The notes under the pieces are model-generated. The model was given only the letters and a program-made list of their open reading frames with translations, was not told the DNA's origin and ran no database searches. A stretch of 64,000 nt of DNA from Gemmatimonas phototrophica (lineage in GTDB: Bacteria; Gemmatimonadota; Gemmatimonadetes; Gemmatimonadales; Gemmatimonadaceae). The stretch spans positions 248,001 through 312,000 of the forward strand of contig CAMBNV010000001.1 of NCBI GenBank assembly GCA_945869195.1, read 5' to 3'. Shown here piece after piece: positions 57,056 to 64,000 of this stretch; the stretch's first letter is position 1; the number at the start of each line of letters is the position of its first letter. The position numbers and the translations under genes were made by a program.

Positions 57056-58180
57056 TCACCACCCGCGGTGGTTCACCCAACGGCCGACGATCGCCGTCCC
57101 CTCACACACCACATACTCGGCGTGCTGGGCCGCCGTGAGACAGGAGTGGTTGACCAGCACGCGGACCCGAGCGCCCACCCCGAGTCGCGTGAGCAGCGCG
57201 TCGTCTCGTACGTGGACGACTCCATGCTCCTGCGAGAGGGACGTGACACGAAGCCCGAGGTCGCGCCCCTCGACGTCGAGAACGCGTCCGTAGTGCGTCA
57301 CGCCGTCGGCATCGGCGATCCCGGCGTCCTTGCTCAGCGCAATTCCACCGGCGTCGAGGATCACCGTGCCGCGCTTGGGGTCGCGATGGACAACGGCGGC
57401 GAGCACCGACAGCGCGCAATCGTCTGCCGTGCAGCTGCCGATCGTGACCTGCATCACGTCGAAGAATGCGTAGTTGCCGGCGCGCACTTCGTGCACGCCG
57501 GTGAGATGATCGACCCCCATCGCCGTCGGTGTTGAGCCAATGCTCACGGCGGGCACGGGTACGCCAGCCGACGCGAGGTGCGCCGCCGCCGCGACCATCA
57601 CGTCGCGTTCACTGCGCGCGACCGCGAGGATCTCGGTCGGACCACGCGCCTGGTACGAATGCCCCGCATGCGCGAGGATCCCGGCAAAGCGAAGATGTGT
57701 GCGCTCGCCGATGCGCCGTGCGAGTTCCGCGAGCGAGGGCCCCTCGGGATCGACGCCGCAACGATGGTAGCCACAGTCGACCTTCACCCAGGTGTCGACC
57801 GTCACGCCCGCCTGCCGCGCCGCCTCACCGAGTGGACCCGGTACGGTGACATCGTCGGTGATAACAGCAAGGCGCACCCCGGCCGCATTCATCTGTGCAA
57901 CCGCCTCGAACTTGCCGCGTTCGATCGGCACCGCGTAGGTGATATCGTCGAAGCCGTGCGCGGCGAAGGCGCGCGCCTCCGCAAGCGTCGAGACGGTGAT
58001 GCCGCGCATCCCCGCGGCGGCCTGCAGCCGCCCGACCTCGATGCTCTTGTGGGTCTTCACGTGCGGGCGCAGCGTGGCGCCCAGTCCGGCGATGCGGGCT
58101 CCCATCCGCGCCACATTGCGCTCCACCCGCGTGCGGTCGACCAGCAGGCTCGGCGTGGTGAGCGCGCCGAGATCACTCAC
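57056..58180 (-). CDS. D-serine dehydratase/D-threonine aldolase-like PLP enzyme
   Basis: A 374-residue fold-type III (alanine-racemase-like) PLP enzyme. The PLP region is LRPHVKTHKSIE (about residues 38-48, one of the two lysines being the Schiff base), and a beta domain begins around 255. The metal site near the end reads NHSC (His345, Cys347). Eukaryotic D-serine dehydratases use a His/Cys zinc pair here, whereas D-threonine aldolases have His/Asp; so I favour D-serine deamination. It overlaps the RidA gene by eight bases, and RidA removes the aminoacrylate that this reaction makes. Confidence 0.82.
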   Translation of the reverse strand: MSDLGALTTPSLLVDRTRVERNVARMGARIAGLGATLRPHVKTHKSIEVGRLQAAAGMRGITVSTLAEARAFAAHGFDDITYAVPIERGKFEAVAQMNAAGVRLAVITDDVTVPGPLGEAARQAGVTVDTWVKVDCGYHRCGVDPEGPSLAELARRIGERTHLRFAGILAHAGHSYQARGPTEILAVARSERDVMVAAAAHLASAGVPVPAVSIGSTPTAMGVDHLTGVHEVRAGNYAFFDVMQVTIGSCTADDCALSVLAAVVHRDPKRGTVILDAGGIALSKDAGIADADGVTHYGRVLDVEGRDLGLRVTSLSQEHGVVHVRDDALLTRLGVGARVRVLVNHSCLTAAQHAEYVVCEGTAIVGRWVNHRGW

Positions 58181-58559
58181 GGACGGCGGCGATGCAGTCG
58201 ATCTCGATGAGGCAGCCGGCCTTGAGTTCCCGAGTCGGGATCACAGCGCGCGCCGGCCGACTCTCGCCCATCACCTTTGCGTAGGTCGCGTTGACGGCAC
58301 CCCAGAGCGCGATGTCGCTCACATAGACATTCATCTTGAGTACGTGGGCGAAGTCGCTGCCCGCGGCCTCGAGCACTGCGCCGACATTTGCGAGGGCGCG
58401 CTCCGTCTGCTCCTCGATGCCGCCGGGTACGAGTTCGCGAGTGGCCGGGTCGAAGGCGAGCTGACCGGAGACATAAATCACACCGCGGTGCACGGTCGCA
58501 TGCGAGTAGTGGCCGGCAGGCGCAGGCGCCGTATTGGTCTGGACGTAGAGGATCGACAT
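58173..58559 (-). CDS. ridA: RidA family enamine/imine deaminase
   Basis: A 128-residue protein of the RidA/YjgF/UK114 family. Key features are HATVHRGVIYVSGQLAFDP, the Arg in SRPARAVIPTREL and the Glu in GCLIEIDCIAAV, which together bind the carboxylate and activate water. RidA hydrolyses reactive 2-aminoacrylate and related enamines. The gene overlaps the start of the D-serine dehydratase-like gene by eight bases, so the two are co-translated. This makes functional sense because PLP-dependent D-serine deamination releases aminoacrylate. Confidence 0.94.
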   Translation of the reverse strand: MSILYVQTNTAPAPAGHYSHATVHRGVIYVSGQLAFDPATRELVPGGIEEQTERALANVGAVLEAAGSDFAHVLKMNVYVSDIALWGAVNATYAKVMGESRPARAVIPTRELKAGCLIEIDCIAAVRE

Positions 58560-58613: not shown

Positions 58614-59222
58614 TCAGACGTCCAGATAGGGCGAGGGACCGCGGTCGTCCGCGCCAAAGAGCTCGCGCGACGACTTGCGCCCCTTCGGCCGCCCTGAGCT
58701 GTGCGGTGGCGGGATCGCCGGCCATTCATCCGGCGGGATCAGGTCCTTCACCATCTCGAGGAGCTGATGGCTCAGATGCTGGCCGTACTTGAAGAGCGCG
58801 ACCACGCGCGCGCGATTCCCGAGCAGGAAGACGAGGATCGGTTTGTCGGCCTTGGCCGCATTGCACACCTTGCAGCAGAGGACGAGGTTGTCGCGCCGGT
58901 CGTATGCCGTCTGCCCGCGCCGCGGCGTCACATGATCGAGGGTGATCGTGCGCTCAGGGACGAGCCGCTCGCAGTAGGCGCAGGTGGGCCCGAAGCGCTC
59001 GAGCAACCAGCGCCGCGTCTCGACATACGCCGCGCGTCCGGTGGGGACCGAGGTGAGCTGCGGTTGCCGTGCGGTGCTGCTGCTACTGCCGCCGCCGCCA
59101 CCGCCGCGTCGACGCCTCTTTTGGGGGCTTGCTGGCGCAGCCGCGGGCGCAGCCGCAGGGGCCGCGGGCGGAGTCGCCGCCCCACCGCGGCGCCGTCCGC
59201 GCCCTCCGCGAGAGGTCGCCAT
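58614..59222 (-). CDS. HNH endonuclease family protein
   Basis: A 202-residue protein. After a low-complexity Arg/Ala/Pro/Gly-rich N-terminal part (about residues 5-60), there is an HNH domain with CAYCERLVPERTITLDHVTP, YDRRDNLVLCCKVCNAAK (the two cysteine pairs and the catalytic His). The basic N-terminus may help DNA or RNA binding. Stand-alone genes of this type occur widely outside phages. ATG 59222 is chosen because the first 50 codons upstream carry no family similarity and overlap the promoter of the divergent operon. Confidence 0.85.
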   Translation of the reverse strand: MATSRGGRGRRRGGAATPPAAPAAAPAAAPASPQKRRRRGGGGGGSSSSTARQPQLTSVPTGRAAYVETRRWLLERFGPTCAYCERLVPERTITLDHVTPRRGQTAYDRRDNLVLCCKVCNAAKADKPILVFLLGNRARVVALFKYGQHLSHQLLEMVKDLIPPDEWPAIPPPHSSGRPKGRKSSRELFGADDRGPSPYLDV

Positions 59223-59364: not shown

Positions 59365-59386
59365 TTTACTTGAAACTTCAAGTAAA
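59365..59386. promoter_or_regulatory. Probable MarR operator (10-2-10 inverted repeat)
   Basis: TTTACTTGAA-AC-TTCAAGTAAA is a perfect inverted repeat of ten bases per arm, placed so that it covers the -35 box of the promoter upstream of the aromatic-CoA operon. The operon encodes a MarR regulator, for which such ACTTGAA...TTCAAGT palindromes are typical targets. Binding would block transcription. Confidence 0.75.
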
Positions 59387-59398
59387 TCGCCGTACCAT
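59370..59398 (+). promoter_or_regulatory. Promoter of the aromatic acyl-CoA operon
   Basis: TTGAAA (59370-59375) and TACCAT (59393-59398) are 17 bases apart. The -35 box lies inside the MarR-type palindrome. The GTG start of the first gene at 59425 has AGGAG seven bases upstream. Confidence 0.65.
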
Positions 59399-59424
59399 AG
59401 CTCCGATCCCACAGGAGTGATGGC

Positions 59425-61809
59425 GTGCGCGTACTGGTGGTCGGAGGCGGTCCGGGTGGGCTTTACGCGGCGCTGCTGCTCAGGCGGCGGCATCCGCACG
59501 CGCTCATCGAAGTGCACGAACGCAACCGCCCCGACGACACCTTCGGCTGGGGTATTGTGCTCTCCGACCAGACGGTCGCGAACCTGCGCGCCGCCGACCA
59601 GGAGAGTGCCGACGAAATCGCGAGCGCCCTGCATCATTGGGACGACATCGCCGTGCATTTTCGCGACCGGACGCTGCGCTCCGGCGGTCACGGCTTCAGT
59701 GGCATCGGGCGGGTGACGATGCTCCGGATTTTACGGCAGCGGTGCGAGACGCTTGGAGTGGTCTTGCGGTTCGAGCACGAGACCCCGCTCCACCTCGAGA
59801 CGCTCGTCGAGACCGACGGCTGGGACCTCGTGATCGCGTCCGATGGGATCAACAGCCGCATCCGCGAGCGCTATGCGAGCACCTTCCGCCCGGACACGGA
59901 GCTGCGTCACTGCCGCTACACCTGGCTCGGAACGGCGCGCACCTTCGACGCCTTCACCTTTGCGTTCGTCGAGACCGAGCACGGGTGGTTCCAAGCCCAT
60001 GCCTATCAGTTCGACGCCGGCATGAGCACCTTCATCGTCGAGGCGCCTCAGGACGTCTGGGAGCGCGCGGGGCTGGACGCAATGGACACCGCCGCGTCGA
60101 TCGCCTACTGCGAGCAGCTCTTCGCCAATCAGTTACAGGGCGCCCCCCTGCTGAGCAACTCGTTGCATCTGCGCGGCCCAGCGCAGTGGAGCCGCTTTCC
60201 GCGGATTACCTGCGAACAGTGGGTCCACCACCTGCAGACGGCGCGCGGCCGCGTCCCCCTTGTGCTCCTCGGCGACGCGGCCCATACGGCACATTTCTCC
60301 ATCGGGTCAGGGAGCAAACTCGCGCTGGAAGATGCGATTGCGCTCGACGCCTGTCTCGCGGCGTCACCGCACGATTACGCCCGCGCCCTCACGCGCTATC
60401 AGGCCGAGCGGGCCGTCGAAGTGCTCAAGCTGCAGAACGCCGCGCGCAACTCGACCGAGTGGTTCGAGCACGTCGACCGGTACGCGTCGCTCGCGCCCGA
60501 GCAGTTCGCCTACGCGCTGCTCACCCGGTCGCAGCGAATCTCGCATGAGAATCTGCGCCAGCGAGACCCCGCGTATGTCGCCGCGTTCGAGCGGTGGTTC
60601 ACCCAGGGCGCAGCGGCGAGCACGATCGACGGCATAGAGACCCCACCGGCGGTCCCCCCGCTCCTCACGCCCTATACGGTCCGCGGCTGCACGCTTCCCA
60701 ACCGCGTCGTGGTCTCGCCGATGGCGCAGTACAGCGCCGACACTGACGGATCGCCGAGCGACTGGCACCTTGTGCACCTCGGCGCGCGTGCGACCGGCGG
60801 CGCGGGATTGGTGATGACCGAGATGACCTGCCCCGCCGCCGACGCCCGAATCACTCCGTGGTGTCCGGGCCTCTGGACCGAGGCTCACCGTGACGCCTGG
60901 GCGCGCATCGTCGGCTTCGTGCATACCTACTCCCAAGCGCGTATCGGGCTGCAGCTCGGGCATGCGGGCGCCAAGGGATCCACAAAGAAGATGTGGGAAG
61001 GCATCGACCGGCCCCTCCCCACCGGCAACTGGCCCCTCGTCGCACCCTCCGAGACGGAGTACCTCACCGGGATCTCCCAACGTGCGCGCGCGATGACGCG
61101 CGAGGACATGGACCGCGTGCGCGATGAGTTCGTGCAGGCCACGCGACTGGCTGACGACGCCGGCTTTGATTGGCTCGAACTCCACTGCGCGCACGGCTAC
61201 CTGCTGTCGGCGTTCCTCTCGCCACTCACCAACCGTCGGAACGACGACTACGGTGGCGATCCGGAGCGCCGGGCGCGATTCCCGCTCGAAGTTTTTCGCG
61301 CGATGCGAGCGGCCTGGCCCGCCGATCGTCCGATGTCCGTGCGCATCTCAGCCCACGACTGGACACCCGGCGGCAATACCGGTGAGGACGCCGTCGGGAT
61401 CGCCCGCCTCTTCCACCAGGCGGGCGCCGACATGATCGATGTCTCCGCCGGCCAGGTGGTCCGGGACGAGAGGCCGGTGTACGGTCGCATGTGGCAGACT
61501 CCGCTCGCCGATGTCGTGCGACAGGACGCGGCCGTGCCGGTCATCGCCGTCGGCGCGATTAGCGACGCCGATCAGGCCAACGGGATCATCGCATCGGGCC
61601 GTGCCGATCTTGTGGCGATCGGTCGGCCGCATCTCGCGAATCCTGCCTGGCTGCTCGCGGAGTCCGCTCGACTCGGCTTCGACGGCAGCGAGGCGCTGTG
61701 GCCGCCGCAGTATCGCGCCGCCAAAGTTCAACTCGATCGCCTTCTGGACCGGGAGCGTGCCGCCATGGCCGCGTCTGCTCCGGCACCACCGAAAGGAGAA
61801 CTCACATGA
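59425..61809 (+). CDS. Bifunctional aromatic acyl-CoA monooxygenase/reductase (2-aminobenzoyl-CoA or salicylyl-CoA type)
   Basis: A 794-residue fusion. Residues about 1-395 are an FAD-dependent hydroxylase: VVGGGPGGLYAALLL at the start, the DLVIASDGINSRIR motif and LLGDAAHTAHFS. From about 410 follows an old-yellow-enzyme (NADH:flavin) domain with NRVVVSPMAQYSADTDG, GLQLGHAGAKGST and LHCAHGYLLSAFLSPLTNRR. This exact fusion is known as 2-aminobenzoyl-CoA monooxygenase/reductase or salicylyl-CoA 5-hydroxylase. It hydroxylates and reduces the ring of a CoA-activated aromatic acid. The GTG at 59425 has AGGAG upstream. It is the first gene of a MarR-controlled operon. Confidence 0.9.
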   Translation: MRVLVVGGGPGGLYAALLLRRRHPHALIEVHERNRPDDTFGWGIVLSDQTVANLRAADQESADEIASALHHWDDIAVHFRDRTLRSGGHGFSGIGRVTMLRILRQRCETLGVVLRFEHETPLHLETLVETDGWDLVIASDGINSRIRERYASTFRPDTELRHCRYTWLGTARTFDAFTFAFVETEHGWFQAHAYQFDAGMSTFIVEAPQDVWERAGLDAMDTAASIAYCEQLFANQLQGAPLLSNSLHLRGPAQWSRFPRITCEQWVHHLQTARGRVPLVLLGDAAHTAHFSIGSGSKLALEDAIALDACLAASPHDYARALTRYQAERAVEVLKLQNAARNSTEWFEHVDRYASLAPEQFAYALLTRSQRISHENLRQRDPAYVAAFERWFTQGAAASTIDGIETPPAVPPLLTPYTVRGCTLPNRVVVSPMAQYSADTDGSPSDWHLVHLGARATGGAGLVMTEMTCPAADARITPWCPGLWTEAHRDAWARIVGFVHTYSQARIGLQLGHAGAKGSTKKMWEGIDRPLPTGNWPLVAPSETEYLTGISQRARAMTREDMDRVRDEFVQATRLADDAGFDWLELHCAHGYLLSAFLSPLTNRRNDDYGGDPERRARFPLEVFRAMRAAWPADRPMSVRISAHDWTPGGNTGEDAVGIARLFHQAGADMIDVSAGQVVRDERPVYGRMWQTPLADVVRQDAAVPVIAVGAISDADQANGIIASGRADLVAIGRPHLANPAWLLAESARLGFDGSEALWPPQYRAAKVQLDRLLDRERAAMAASAPAPPKGELT

Positions 61810-62576
61810 AGCCGCTCGCCGGGCAGCACGCCCTCGTGACCGGAGCCAACCGCGGGATCGGCGCCGCGATCGCCCGCCATCTCGCAACAGGCGGGGCGAA
61901 TGTCACCCTCCTGGTGCGCACACCAGCGAACGCCGAACCCCTCGCGCAGGCGCTCGAGTCGCTCGGAGGACGCGTGGTGATCGTGAGCGCCGACGTGACC
62001 GACGCGGCCGCGCTCGCGCTCGCGATGAGCGAAGCGGTCGCCGCGCTTGGTCCGGTAGACGTCCTCGTGAACAATGCCGGCACCGCCGAAACGGCGTCTT
62101 TCCACCGCAGTGATGACGCGCTATTCACGCGCATGATCGGCGTGCACCTCATGGCGCCGGTGCACGCGATACAGGCGGTGCTGCCCGCGATGCTCGAGGC
62201 CGGACGCGGCCGGATCGTCAACATCGCGAGTATCGCTGGGCTCGCCGGCGGTCCGTACGTCACCGCCTACGTCGCGGCCAAGCATGCGATGGTCGGCCTG
62301 ACGCGGGCACTCGCCGTGGAGTACCGCAATACGGGCGTGCTCGTGAACGCCGTCTGCCCGGGCTACACCGATACCGAGATGGTCAGCCGTGCCGTGACGC
62401 GCGTTGTCGACAAGACGGGCATCGCCGCCCACGATGCGATCGCGACTATTCTGAAGGACAGCGGGCAACGACGCCTCGCCACCACGGACGAAGTCGCCTT
62501 GGCGACGCTCGCGTTCGCATTGCCGACGTGCACGGTCTCCGGCGAGACGACGCTCGTGATGGGCGATCCGGCATGA
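61806..62576 (+). CDS. Short-chain dehydrogenase/reductase (SDR)
   Basis: A 256-residue SDR with TGANRGIG cofactor motif (residues 12-19), NNAGTAE, the catalytic Ser in NIASIAGLAGG, and Tyr155-Lys159 in YVAAK. In related aromatic acyl-CoA clusters such an enzyme oxidises a 3-hydroxyacyl-CoA or ring alcohol intermediate. Its ATG overlaps the previous stop (ATGA), with AAAGGAG upstream, and its TGA overlaps the MarR gene start. Confidence 0.93.
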   Translation: MKPLAGQHALVTGANRGIGAAIARHLATGGANVTLLVRTPANAEPLAQALESLGGRVVIVSADVTDAAALALAMSEAVAALGPVDVLVNNAGTAETASFHRSDDALFTRMIGVHLMAPVHAIQAVLPAMLEAGRGRIVNIASIAGLAGGPYVTAYVAAKHAMVGLTRALAVEYRNTGVLVNAVCPGYTDTEMVSRAVTRVVDKTGIAAHDAIATILKDSGQRRLATTDEVALATLAFALPTCTVSGETTLVMGDPA

Positions 62577-63061
62577 TGACCGCTCCGGCACTCGACCCGG
62601 AGACGCGATTGCAGCGCGACGACCATGAGGCGTTGCGTCTCTGGCTGCGCCTCTTCACCTGCACCACGATGGTTGAACGCAGAGTCGACCAGATGCTCAA
62701 GCGCGCGTTTGGGTCATCGCTCGCGCGGTTCGACGTGCTCGCACAACTTGACCGTGCACCCGACGGCCTGCGTATGGGCGCACTGTCGGAGGGAACACTC
62801 ACGACGAACGGCAATGTTACGTGGCTGGTCGCCGCGCTCGAGGCCGATGGCCATGTCACGCGTCGAACGGCTCCCGATGATCGGCGCGCGACCGTCGTGC
62901 GCCTCACCGCGGCCGGCCGTCGGCATTTCACCCTCATGGCCCGCGAGCACGAAGCGCTGATCATCCATGGGTTTGCAGGGCTCACCGCACTCGAACGCCG
63001 CACCATGCACACGTTGCTCGGCACCGTGAAGCAGCACCTCAGACTCGAGAGGACCTCCTGA
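62573..63061 (+). CDS. MarR family transcriptional regulator
   Basis: A 162-residue winged-helix regulator. The helix-turn-helix lies around residues 55-85 ([20 protein letters not shown]), the wing has [13 protein letters not shown], and the N- and C-terminal helices form the dimer interface. Located inside the operon, with TGATG overlaps on both sides. It probably represses the operon through the inverted repeat at 59365-59386 and is released by an aromatic acyl-CoA; the ligand is inference. Confidence 0.92.
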
Positions 63062-63909
63062 TGTCGGCTCCGGACCCCATGCTCGCGATGCGTCGGCCCC
63101 TGGCCGCGCGCACTTGTACGCGCTTCGGCTGGTCAACGGCGGAGGCAGGCCGCGTCGGCCTCATCACGCTGACCCGGCCGGAGCGCAAAAATTCACTCAC
63201 ATTCGAGTCGTACGCCGAGCTCCGCGACCTCTTTCGTGAGCTCGCGTACGCCTCGGATGTGCGTGCGATCGTACTCACCGGCGCCGGCGGCAACTTCTGC
63301 TCTGGCGGCGACGTCTTCGAGATCATCGAGCCGCTCACGCGGATGGCGGCGCCGGAGCTGCTCGCCTTCACGCGTCTGACCGGGGACCTCGTCAAAGCGA
63401 TGCGCGCCTGTCCCCAGCCGATTATCGCGGCGGTCGACGGCGTGGCCGCCGGCGCCGGCGCGATCCTCGCGATGGCATCGGACATCCGCCTCGCGACACC
63501 CCGCACGCGCACCGCATTCCTCTTCACGCGCGTCGGACTCGCTGGCTGCGACATGGGCGCCTGCGCGCTCTTGCCACGGATCATCGGCCAGGGGCGGGCC
63601 AGCGAGCTGCTCTTGACCGGCCGCCAGATGGATGCGGTCGAGGGCGAGCGCTGGGGATTCTACAATCAGATCGTGGATGCCGACGCGCTCCTCGCCGAGG
63701 CCATGCGGCGCGCGACCGACCTCGCCAACGGGCCGACGTTTGCGCACGCGATGACCAAGGGGATGCTGCAGCAGGAGTGGAACGTGTCCCTCGAACAGGC
63801 CATTGAGATGGAGGCCCAGGCCCAGGCGCTCTGCATGGGGACGCAGGACTTTCGGCGCGCGTTCGAGGCATTCGCGGCCAAACGGTCCCCCATCTTTGAG
63901 GGAAACTGA
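63061..63909 (+). CDS. Enoyl-CoA hydratase/isomerase family protein
   Basis: A 282-residue crotonase-fold protein with the two oxyanion-hole segments [11 protein letters not shown] and [16 protein letters not shown], and [19 protein letters not shown], where the position of one catalytic Glu of classic hydratases is a Cys-Asp pair. It probably hydrates or cleaves a ring-reduced CoA intermediate of the pathway. The start overlaps the MarR stop by one base. The next gene starts one base after its stop. Confidence 0.92.
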
Positions 63910-63910
63910 G

Positions 63911-64000
63911 GTGGACACCGCCGCGCCCCCACATCTGTCATGGCCCTTCTTCACCGACGCGCACCGCGCGCTCGCTGCCCACGCCTCCACCTGGGTCGCC
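63911..64000 (+). CDS. Acyl-CoA dehydrogenase-like gene, N-terminal start (cut by window edge)
   Basis: A GTG at 63911, one base after the enoyl-CoA hydratase stop and preceded by GGAAACTGAG, opens a frame that runs to the window end. The 30 codons read as PPHLSWPFFTDAHRALAAHA, which fits the N-terminus of acyl-CoA dehydrogenases from related aromatic acyl-CoA clusters. The family call rests on this short piece plus the operon context. Confidence 0.55.
   Translation, partial: MDTAAPPHLSWPFFTDAHRALAAHASTWVA

Follow-up and report, generated by a model that had tools for sequence, protein, structure and literature searches.

A conserved palindrome over the -35 box of a 2-aminobenzoyl-CoA/salicylyl-CoA-type operon in Gemmatimonas phototrophica is very likely the docking site of the cluster's own MarR-type repressor

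For the MarR-family regulator CouR of Rhodococcus jostii RHA1, excerpts of the published account describe an inverted repeat that lies over -35 boxes (TTGAcA), release from DNA by p-coumaroyl-CoA, with p-coumarate and CoA having no such effect, and two arginines, Arg36 and Arg38, that bind the CoA phosphates and are missing from some CoA-responsive homologues (PMC4737184). As far as such excerpts go, induction by a CoA thioester is common in MarR regulators of CoA-dependent aromatic pathways, though there are exceptions, and the regulators treated in the available part of PMC6449761 serve benzoate, catechol, phenol, biphenyl and toluene. A further described relative, IadR/MarR_73 of Variovorax paradoxus, is a MarR repressor at a locus for aromatic degradation that yields anthranilic acid as its end product (excerpts of PMC9613470).

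Here we analysed an operon in a stretch of 64,000 nucleotides (the window) from G. phototrophica. Like the CouR system, as portrayed in the accessible part of PMC4737184, this locus combines a MarR gene among pathway genes, an inverted repeat over a -35 box and the CoA-dependent catabolism of an aromatic acid; such an arrangement is a well-known kind of switch, with CouR as a close precedent. The two systems differ in the box itself, cATTGA-(5)-TCAATg in CouR versus ACTTKA-(4)-TMAAGT here, and in the pathway; moreover, couR has its own promoter and is divergent from couN, whereas the MarR gene described here lies inside the operon (same excerpts). The CoA-thioester ligand is a feature of CouR, which the window's MarR protein may share by analogy. 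IadR/MarR_73 is a weaker sequence relative of the window's MarR protein (E 1.6e-9); unlike the latter, it controls genes for the degradation of indole-3-acetate (auxin), takes the free acid as its ligand and, as far as the excerpts of PMC9613470 go, is not the regulator of an anthranilate-CoA operon. In the open-access literature, the scope of our search to the exclusion of subscription journals, no description of this regulator-operator pair was found. The clusters of Azoarcus evansii that encode a two-domain 2-aminobenzoyl-CoA monooxygenase/reductase presumably represent the same enzyme and cluster type, and in the open-access literature we found no operator or MarR function for them either.

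The first gene of the operon, which we label ABM (59425-61809, + strand), encodes a bifunctional FAD monooxygenase/OYE-type reductase of 794 residues with the Pfam domains FAD_binding_3 and Oxidored_FMN. With 1233.8 bits, it exceeds the cut-off of 1078 for NF006101, a family named bifunctional salicylyl-CoA 5-hydroxylase/oxidoreductase, and is of the 2-aminobenzoyl-CoA monooxygenase/reductase or salicylyl-CoA 5-hydroxylase type. Its two-domain architecture resembles what we take to be that of 2-aminobenzoyl-CoA monooxygenase/reductase. The start of a short-chain dehydrogenase gene (SDR; 61806-62576, +; profile matches) overlaps the ABM stop, and is followed by the gene of a MarR-family regulator of 162 residues (62573-63061, +), a member of the crotonase/enoyl-CoA hydratase family (63061-63909, +; NF006107, 462 bits, cut-off 330) and an acyl-CoA dehydrogenase gene of which the window holds only the start (63910-64000, +). 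Beyond the window (locus L112), the operon continues with benzoate-CoA-ligase-like, RidA-like and FabH-like genes; the benzoate-CoA-ligase-family protein scores 363.8 bits, just under its subfamily cut-off of 375.25. The nearest named relatives are Gemmatimonadaceae. By gene families, the operon is of the CoA-dependent aminobenzoate/salicylate type, and its combination of an aryl-CoA ligase with beta-oxidation-type genes (SDR, crotonase, acyl-CoA dehydrogenase, benzoate-CoA-ligase-family protein, RidA) fits a CoA-dependent, dearomatising route ending in beta-oxidation-type steps. A first-pass annotation had named the cluster an aromatic acyl-CoA operon with a MarR regulator as its third gene; both statements hold, and NF006101 together with the operon's gene families sharpens the former to the 2-aminobenzoyl-CoA/salicylyl-CoA type.

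Anthranilate is probably what the operon genes degrade. A kynureninase-like gene on the same contig (152.2 bits, family cut-off 246.4) and a tryptophan-dioxygenase (TDO)-like gene in the genome (135.3 and 67.9 bits, cut-off 390.7) suggest that anthranilate derived from tryptophan is the substrate. We rejected these kynurenine-pathway genes as proof and regard them as suggestive, because both score below curated cut-offs.

Directly upstream of ABM, a perfect 10-2-10 palindrome, TTTACTTGAA-AC-TTCAAGTAAA, occupies positions 59365-59386 (+) and is the predicted operator. Its left half contains a -35 box, TTGAAA (59370-59375, +), from which a 17-base spacer leads to the -10 box TACCAT (59393-59398, +); the ribosome-binding site AGGAG (59413-59417, +) precedes the GTG start at 59425. 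The palindrome covering TTGAAA and the TACCAT box at 17 bases are thus both as first annotated, and so is the distance of 143 bases between the palindrome's first base, 59365, and the start codon of the divergent HNH gene at 59222 (-).

This neighbouring gene (58614-59222, -) encodes an HNH-domain protein (PF01844, 30.8 bits) whose best NCBIfam match, IscB, reaches 42.5 bits, far under the cut-off of 175. Sharing of the operator by the HNH gene was considered and rejected: inspection of the minus strand by eye revealed no -10-like hexamer at 17 bases, and with no visible promoter of its own on that site, the gene belongs to the neighbourhood and not to the circuit. In the window, it stands with two further minus-strand genes (58173-58559 and 57056-58180). 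Related Gemmatimonadaceae carry an HNH gene divergent to the operon at the same place, usually with an adjoining RidA-like gene, and some of them also have a D-threonine-aldolase/BhcC-like gene nearby.

Perfect symmetry by itself was rejected as sufficient evidence, because the window contains several GC-rich palindromes of similar size. A scan for perfect palindromes with arms of at least 10 and spacers of at most 6 bases gave 8 matches at 5 distinct places, some being one palindrome counted at two spacers, compared to 0 to 4 per shuffle in 10 shuffles. The palindrome at 59365-59386 was the only AT-rich one, and none of the 10 shuffles produced an AT-rich palindrome. When up to 3 mismatches were allowed, its pattern matched once in the 64-kb window versus never in 100 shuffles, and nowhere else in the whole 2.33 Mb genome. 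The existence of GC-rich palindromes of this size could favour a chance palindrome or a DNA/RNA hairpin that involves no regulator. The pattern statistics speak against this, as does the location of the palindrome upstream of the point where the two boxes would start transcription, and conservation of the site at fixed geometry, described below, refutes it, so that we consider its probability negligible.

In a first comparison of 80 named relatives and 30 loci of the same phylum, most carried a variant of the palindrome, WTTACTTKA-N4-TMAAGTAAW, upstream of ABM. Conservation upstream of homologous operons, on which the first-pass annotation had staked its operator, is thus found in both Gemmatimonadota and Burkholderiales. 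A position weight matrix built from 58 unique sites had a low background: among 1,032,926 positions in the named loci, excluding the best match, 13 reached at least 10 bits and 2 at least 18 bits, and 0.23% and 0.02% of shuffled upstream regions reached 10 and 18 bits, respectively. A pattern search over 395 genomes gave matches in 57 of them, and a reversed control pattern matched about as often. By eye, 14 of the 57 (window included) had a match at most ~70 bases upstream of ABM; many of the remaining matches, away from ABM, look like chance or another MarR motif.

Several other operator-like sequences were observed during these searches. In another family of the phylum (f2), a distinct motif, TTAGTTGACATGTCAAGTAT, occurs repeatedly, for example at G107:C174:15923-15942. 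In G107 it lies ~100 bases from another MarR-like gene, and it may serve a second MarR group as operator. Strong sites in single loci (L069 at -3024 and -3129, L054 at +6130, relative to ABM) are possibly tandem operators or mark a second transcription unit of the regulon. Locus L046 (RHKK01000006.1) is titled Candidatus Uhrbacteria, yet its operon is of the Gemmatimonadota type, and the contig may be misbinned.

The comparison was extended by 60 additional loci of the phylum to 171 in total, from which 23 near-duplicates (judged by the first 300 bases of ABM) were dropped to leave 148, and 8 with too little flanking DNA to leave 140; MarR genes were detected with a profile HMM built solely from tblastn-matched stretches. 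At 18 bits, 72 of these 140 non-redundant loci had both MarR gene and site, 14 had the MarR gene without the site, 12 the site without the MarR gene and 42 neither (Fisher p = 4e-13, which overstates independence because the loci are phylogenetically related). Parsimony on the ABM tree counted 9 changes for the MarR gene and 11 for the site. The matrix derives from sites in L002-L111 themselves and, because these loci supplied the motif, only L139-L198, which are relatives, are out of sample. Among the 47 non-redundant loci outside matrix building, the same threshold gave 7 with both, 5 with MarR only, none with the site only and 35 with neither. The five MarR-only loci score between 10.0 (rounded) and 17.7 bits and would thus pass a threshold of 10 bits, which was picked only after the scores had been seen.

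The apparent exceptions proved informative. All 12 genomes with a site but no MarR gene at the ABM locus, six Massilia/Telluria and six Ramlibacter/Caenimonas, hold an unlinked MarR ortholog, 55-61% identical to a Paraburkholderia one according to a whole-genome search, and in all 12 this relocated gene is accompanied by the same site. The site lies directly upstream of the relocated gene in the six Ramlibacter/Caenimonas genomes; the six Massilia-type genomes have one site ~1.75 kb upstream of it, and the intervening gene, in the one genome of this type that was examined, is benzoate-CoA-ligase-like. In five loci where ABM is not the first gene of the operon (L064, L069, L093, L097, L110), the site was found farther upstream, with a ligase-like gene identified upstream of ABM in L064 and L069. 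Because ABM in L025 overlaps a frame that precedes it, a site was predicted farther upstream; once the DNA had been fetched, it was found there at 21.4 bits. Counting unlinked MarR genes and earlier operon starts, the presence or absence of the MarR gene matches that of the site in 138 of 140 loci, the two exceptions being L087, with little upstream DNA and ABM not first in the operon, and L156, whose degenerate site falls just below 10 bits. L145, outside the 140 on account of its short flank, has the MarR gene but no site up to the start of its contig; there, as in L087, ABM is preceded by an upstream frame on the same strand. A MarR-profile search of 47 genomes agreed with this picture: the 8 genomes with the gene all scored 174-236 bits, and in none of the other 39, which lack the site, did any match genome-wide exceed 108.3 bits.

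As judged from these sequences, the link between site and MarR gene exceeds proximity: the two co-occur, move together and are lost together. Operator, promoter and regulator, the parts of the circuit claimed in the first-pass annotation, are all at the places it named, and a MarR-type repressor from the same cluster very likely docks on the palindrome. Binding of the palindrome by some other regulator, with the MarR gene as a passenger of the operon, is conceivable on general grounds, and appears very improbable in the face of a site that accompanies the relocated MarR gene in 12 of 12 cases and is absent together with it from 39 of 39 genomes tested.

Operator and -35 box occupy the same bases, and this double use is visible in the composition of the site. 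Among 85 non-redundant, phylogenetically related sites, 65 left halves, on the -35 strand, carry G at position 8, versus 11 right halves; this G is confined to the left half in 58 sites and to the right half in 4. In 63 of the 65 TTGA-type sites, the best promoter has its -35 box at the same offset in the operator with a spacer of 17, and TTGACA serves as -35 in 35 of all 85. The perfect symmetry of the window's palindrome is among the few cases with G at position 8 in both halves. The left half reads TTTA in 20 of the 85 sites, so that the position over the -35 box is a rule and not universal; for most of these the best promoter is placed elsewhere, and the operator therefore covers other promoter parts. 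In six loci of Gemmatimonadaceae (L005, L007, L008, L011, L012, L016), the -10 box ends 5 to 6 bases before the ABM ATG with no ribosome-binding site between, and the operon mRNA is therefore probably leaderless in these six, unlike in the window.

Loss of the repressor in the window's genus separates the two functions. In two genomes, G171 and G028, which are 98 and 100% complete, the MarR profile has no match at 1e-10; both keep the left half with TTGATA, the 17-base spacer and a -10 box TAGCGT, and have lost the right half-site, so that without the repressor the non-promoter part of the operator decays. The palindrome is also lost in G290 (81% complete), where the only MarR match has 53.8 bits, and G258, from the same family, has neither a MarR match nor a site. 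G248 also lacks a MarR match and was left out of the count, as its match to ABM sets in only within the protein, which leaves the start unsettled. These genomes bear on the direction of regulation, which is itself invisible in sequence and could also accommodate a MarR protein that acts as an activator or as the partner of an anti-activator. We give such a role a slight chance: a site over a near-consensus -35 box at a fixed offset is the usual position of a repressor, and the promoter boxes kept in two MarR-less genomes are expected if the promoter works unaided.

Profile, structural model and fold search all identify the regulator, which we call AbmR for convenience, as an ordinary MarR protein. 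It exceeds the curated cut-offs of PF12802 (38.7 bits, cut-off 27) and PF01047 (27.9 bits, cut-off 24.6), and its AlphaFold model has a mean pLDDT of 87.8. The best Foldseek matches of the model are MarR proteins, led by 8ylg, a complex of MftR with its operator DNA (TM 0.76, E 1.4e-9). The closest solved sequence relative is 3BOQ (phmmer E 9e-19, profile E 8e-35; ~30% identity in Foldseek), a MarR protein of Silicibacter (Ruegeria) pomeroyi whose structure comes without a stated function and which was compared by sequence and fold alone. The genome encodes a second, weaker MarR homologue (L202, G000:C5:77419-77802, 79.3 bits) with a weak palindrome of 11.6 bits near its upstream side.

Taken together, we read the palindrome as the operator of the operon's own MarR protein, an autoregulated repressor that would block RNA polymerase and be released by an aromatic acyl-CoA, and put the probability of this reading at about 0.87. 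A MarR dimer would bind the 22-base site, one half of which doubles as the -35 box, and would thereby deny RNA polymerase access to the promoter that drives the CoA-dependent aminobenzoate (anthranilate) operon, MarR gene included. In the presence of substrate, a background level of ligase would form the aromatic CoA thioester, most likely 2-aminobenzoyl-CoA, which would bind the repressor and cause its release, so that expression of operon and repressor would continue until the inducer has been consumed; the MarR gene would limit its own level because it is located in the operon. What we infer in this circuit is the contact with DNA, repression as opposed to activation, and the nature of the ligand.

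The same circuit could respond to the free acid (anthranilate or salicylate) or to a later intermediate instead of 2-aminobenzoyl-CoA. Free aromatic acids are ligands of related MarR proteins, MarR_73 among them (7kfo and 7kjl are among the structure matches), and the family name of the first enzyme, salicylyl-CoA 5-hydroxylase, points towards salicylate. On the other hand, several MarR regulators of CoA-dependent aromatic pathways answer to the CoA thioester (CouR and FerC), and the RidA gene in the operon and the kynureninase-like gene, albeit below its cut-off, fit an amino substrate. We therefore treat an inducer other than 2-aminobenzoyl-CoA as a tentative alternative that deserves real but lesser weight.

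In a more general form, to which we would give even odds, a so far undescribed group of MarR orthologs senses 2-aminobenzoyl-CoA and controls one regulon through one operator (ACTTKA-N4-TMAAGT), and does so in Gemmatimonadota and Burkholderiales at the least. Operator and -35 box would share bases in this regulon, which would leave a strand asymmetry with the position-8 G on the -35 strand, and loss of the repressor would erode only the half that is not part of the promoter.

The comparative support for this pairing of site and repressor is unusually strong, and in the repressor-less genomes of the window's genus nature has separated the role of operator from that of promoter at shared bases. 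If the repressor indeed responds to 2-aminobenzoyl-CoA or anthranilate, it would be a useful biosensor part. What began as one palindrome has become a regulator and operator that can be tested as a pair, in an aerobic aromatic pathway that dispenses with ring-cleaving dioxygenases.
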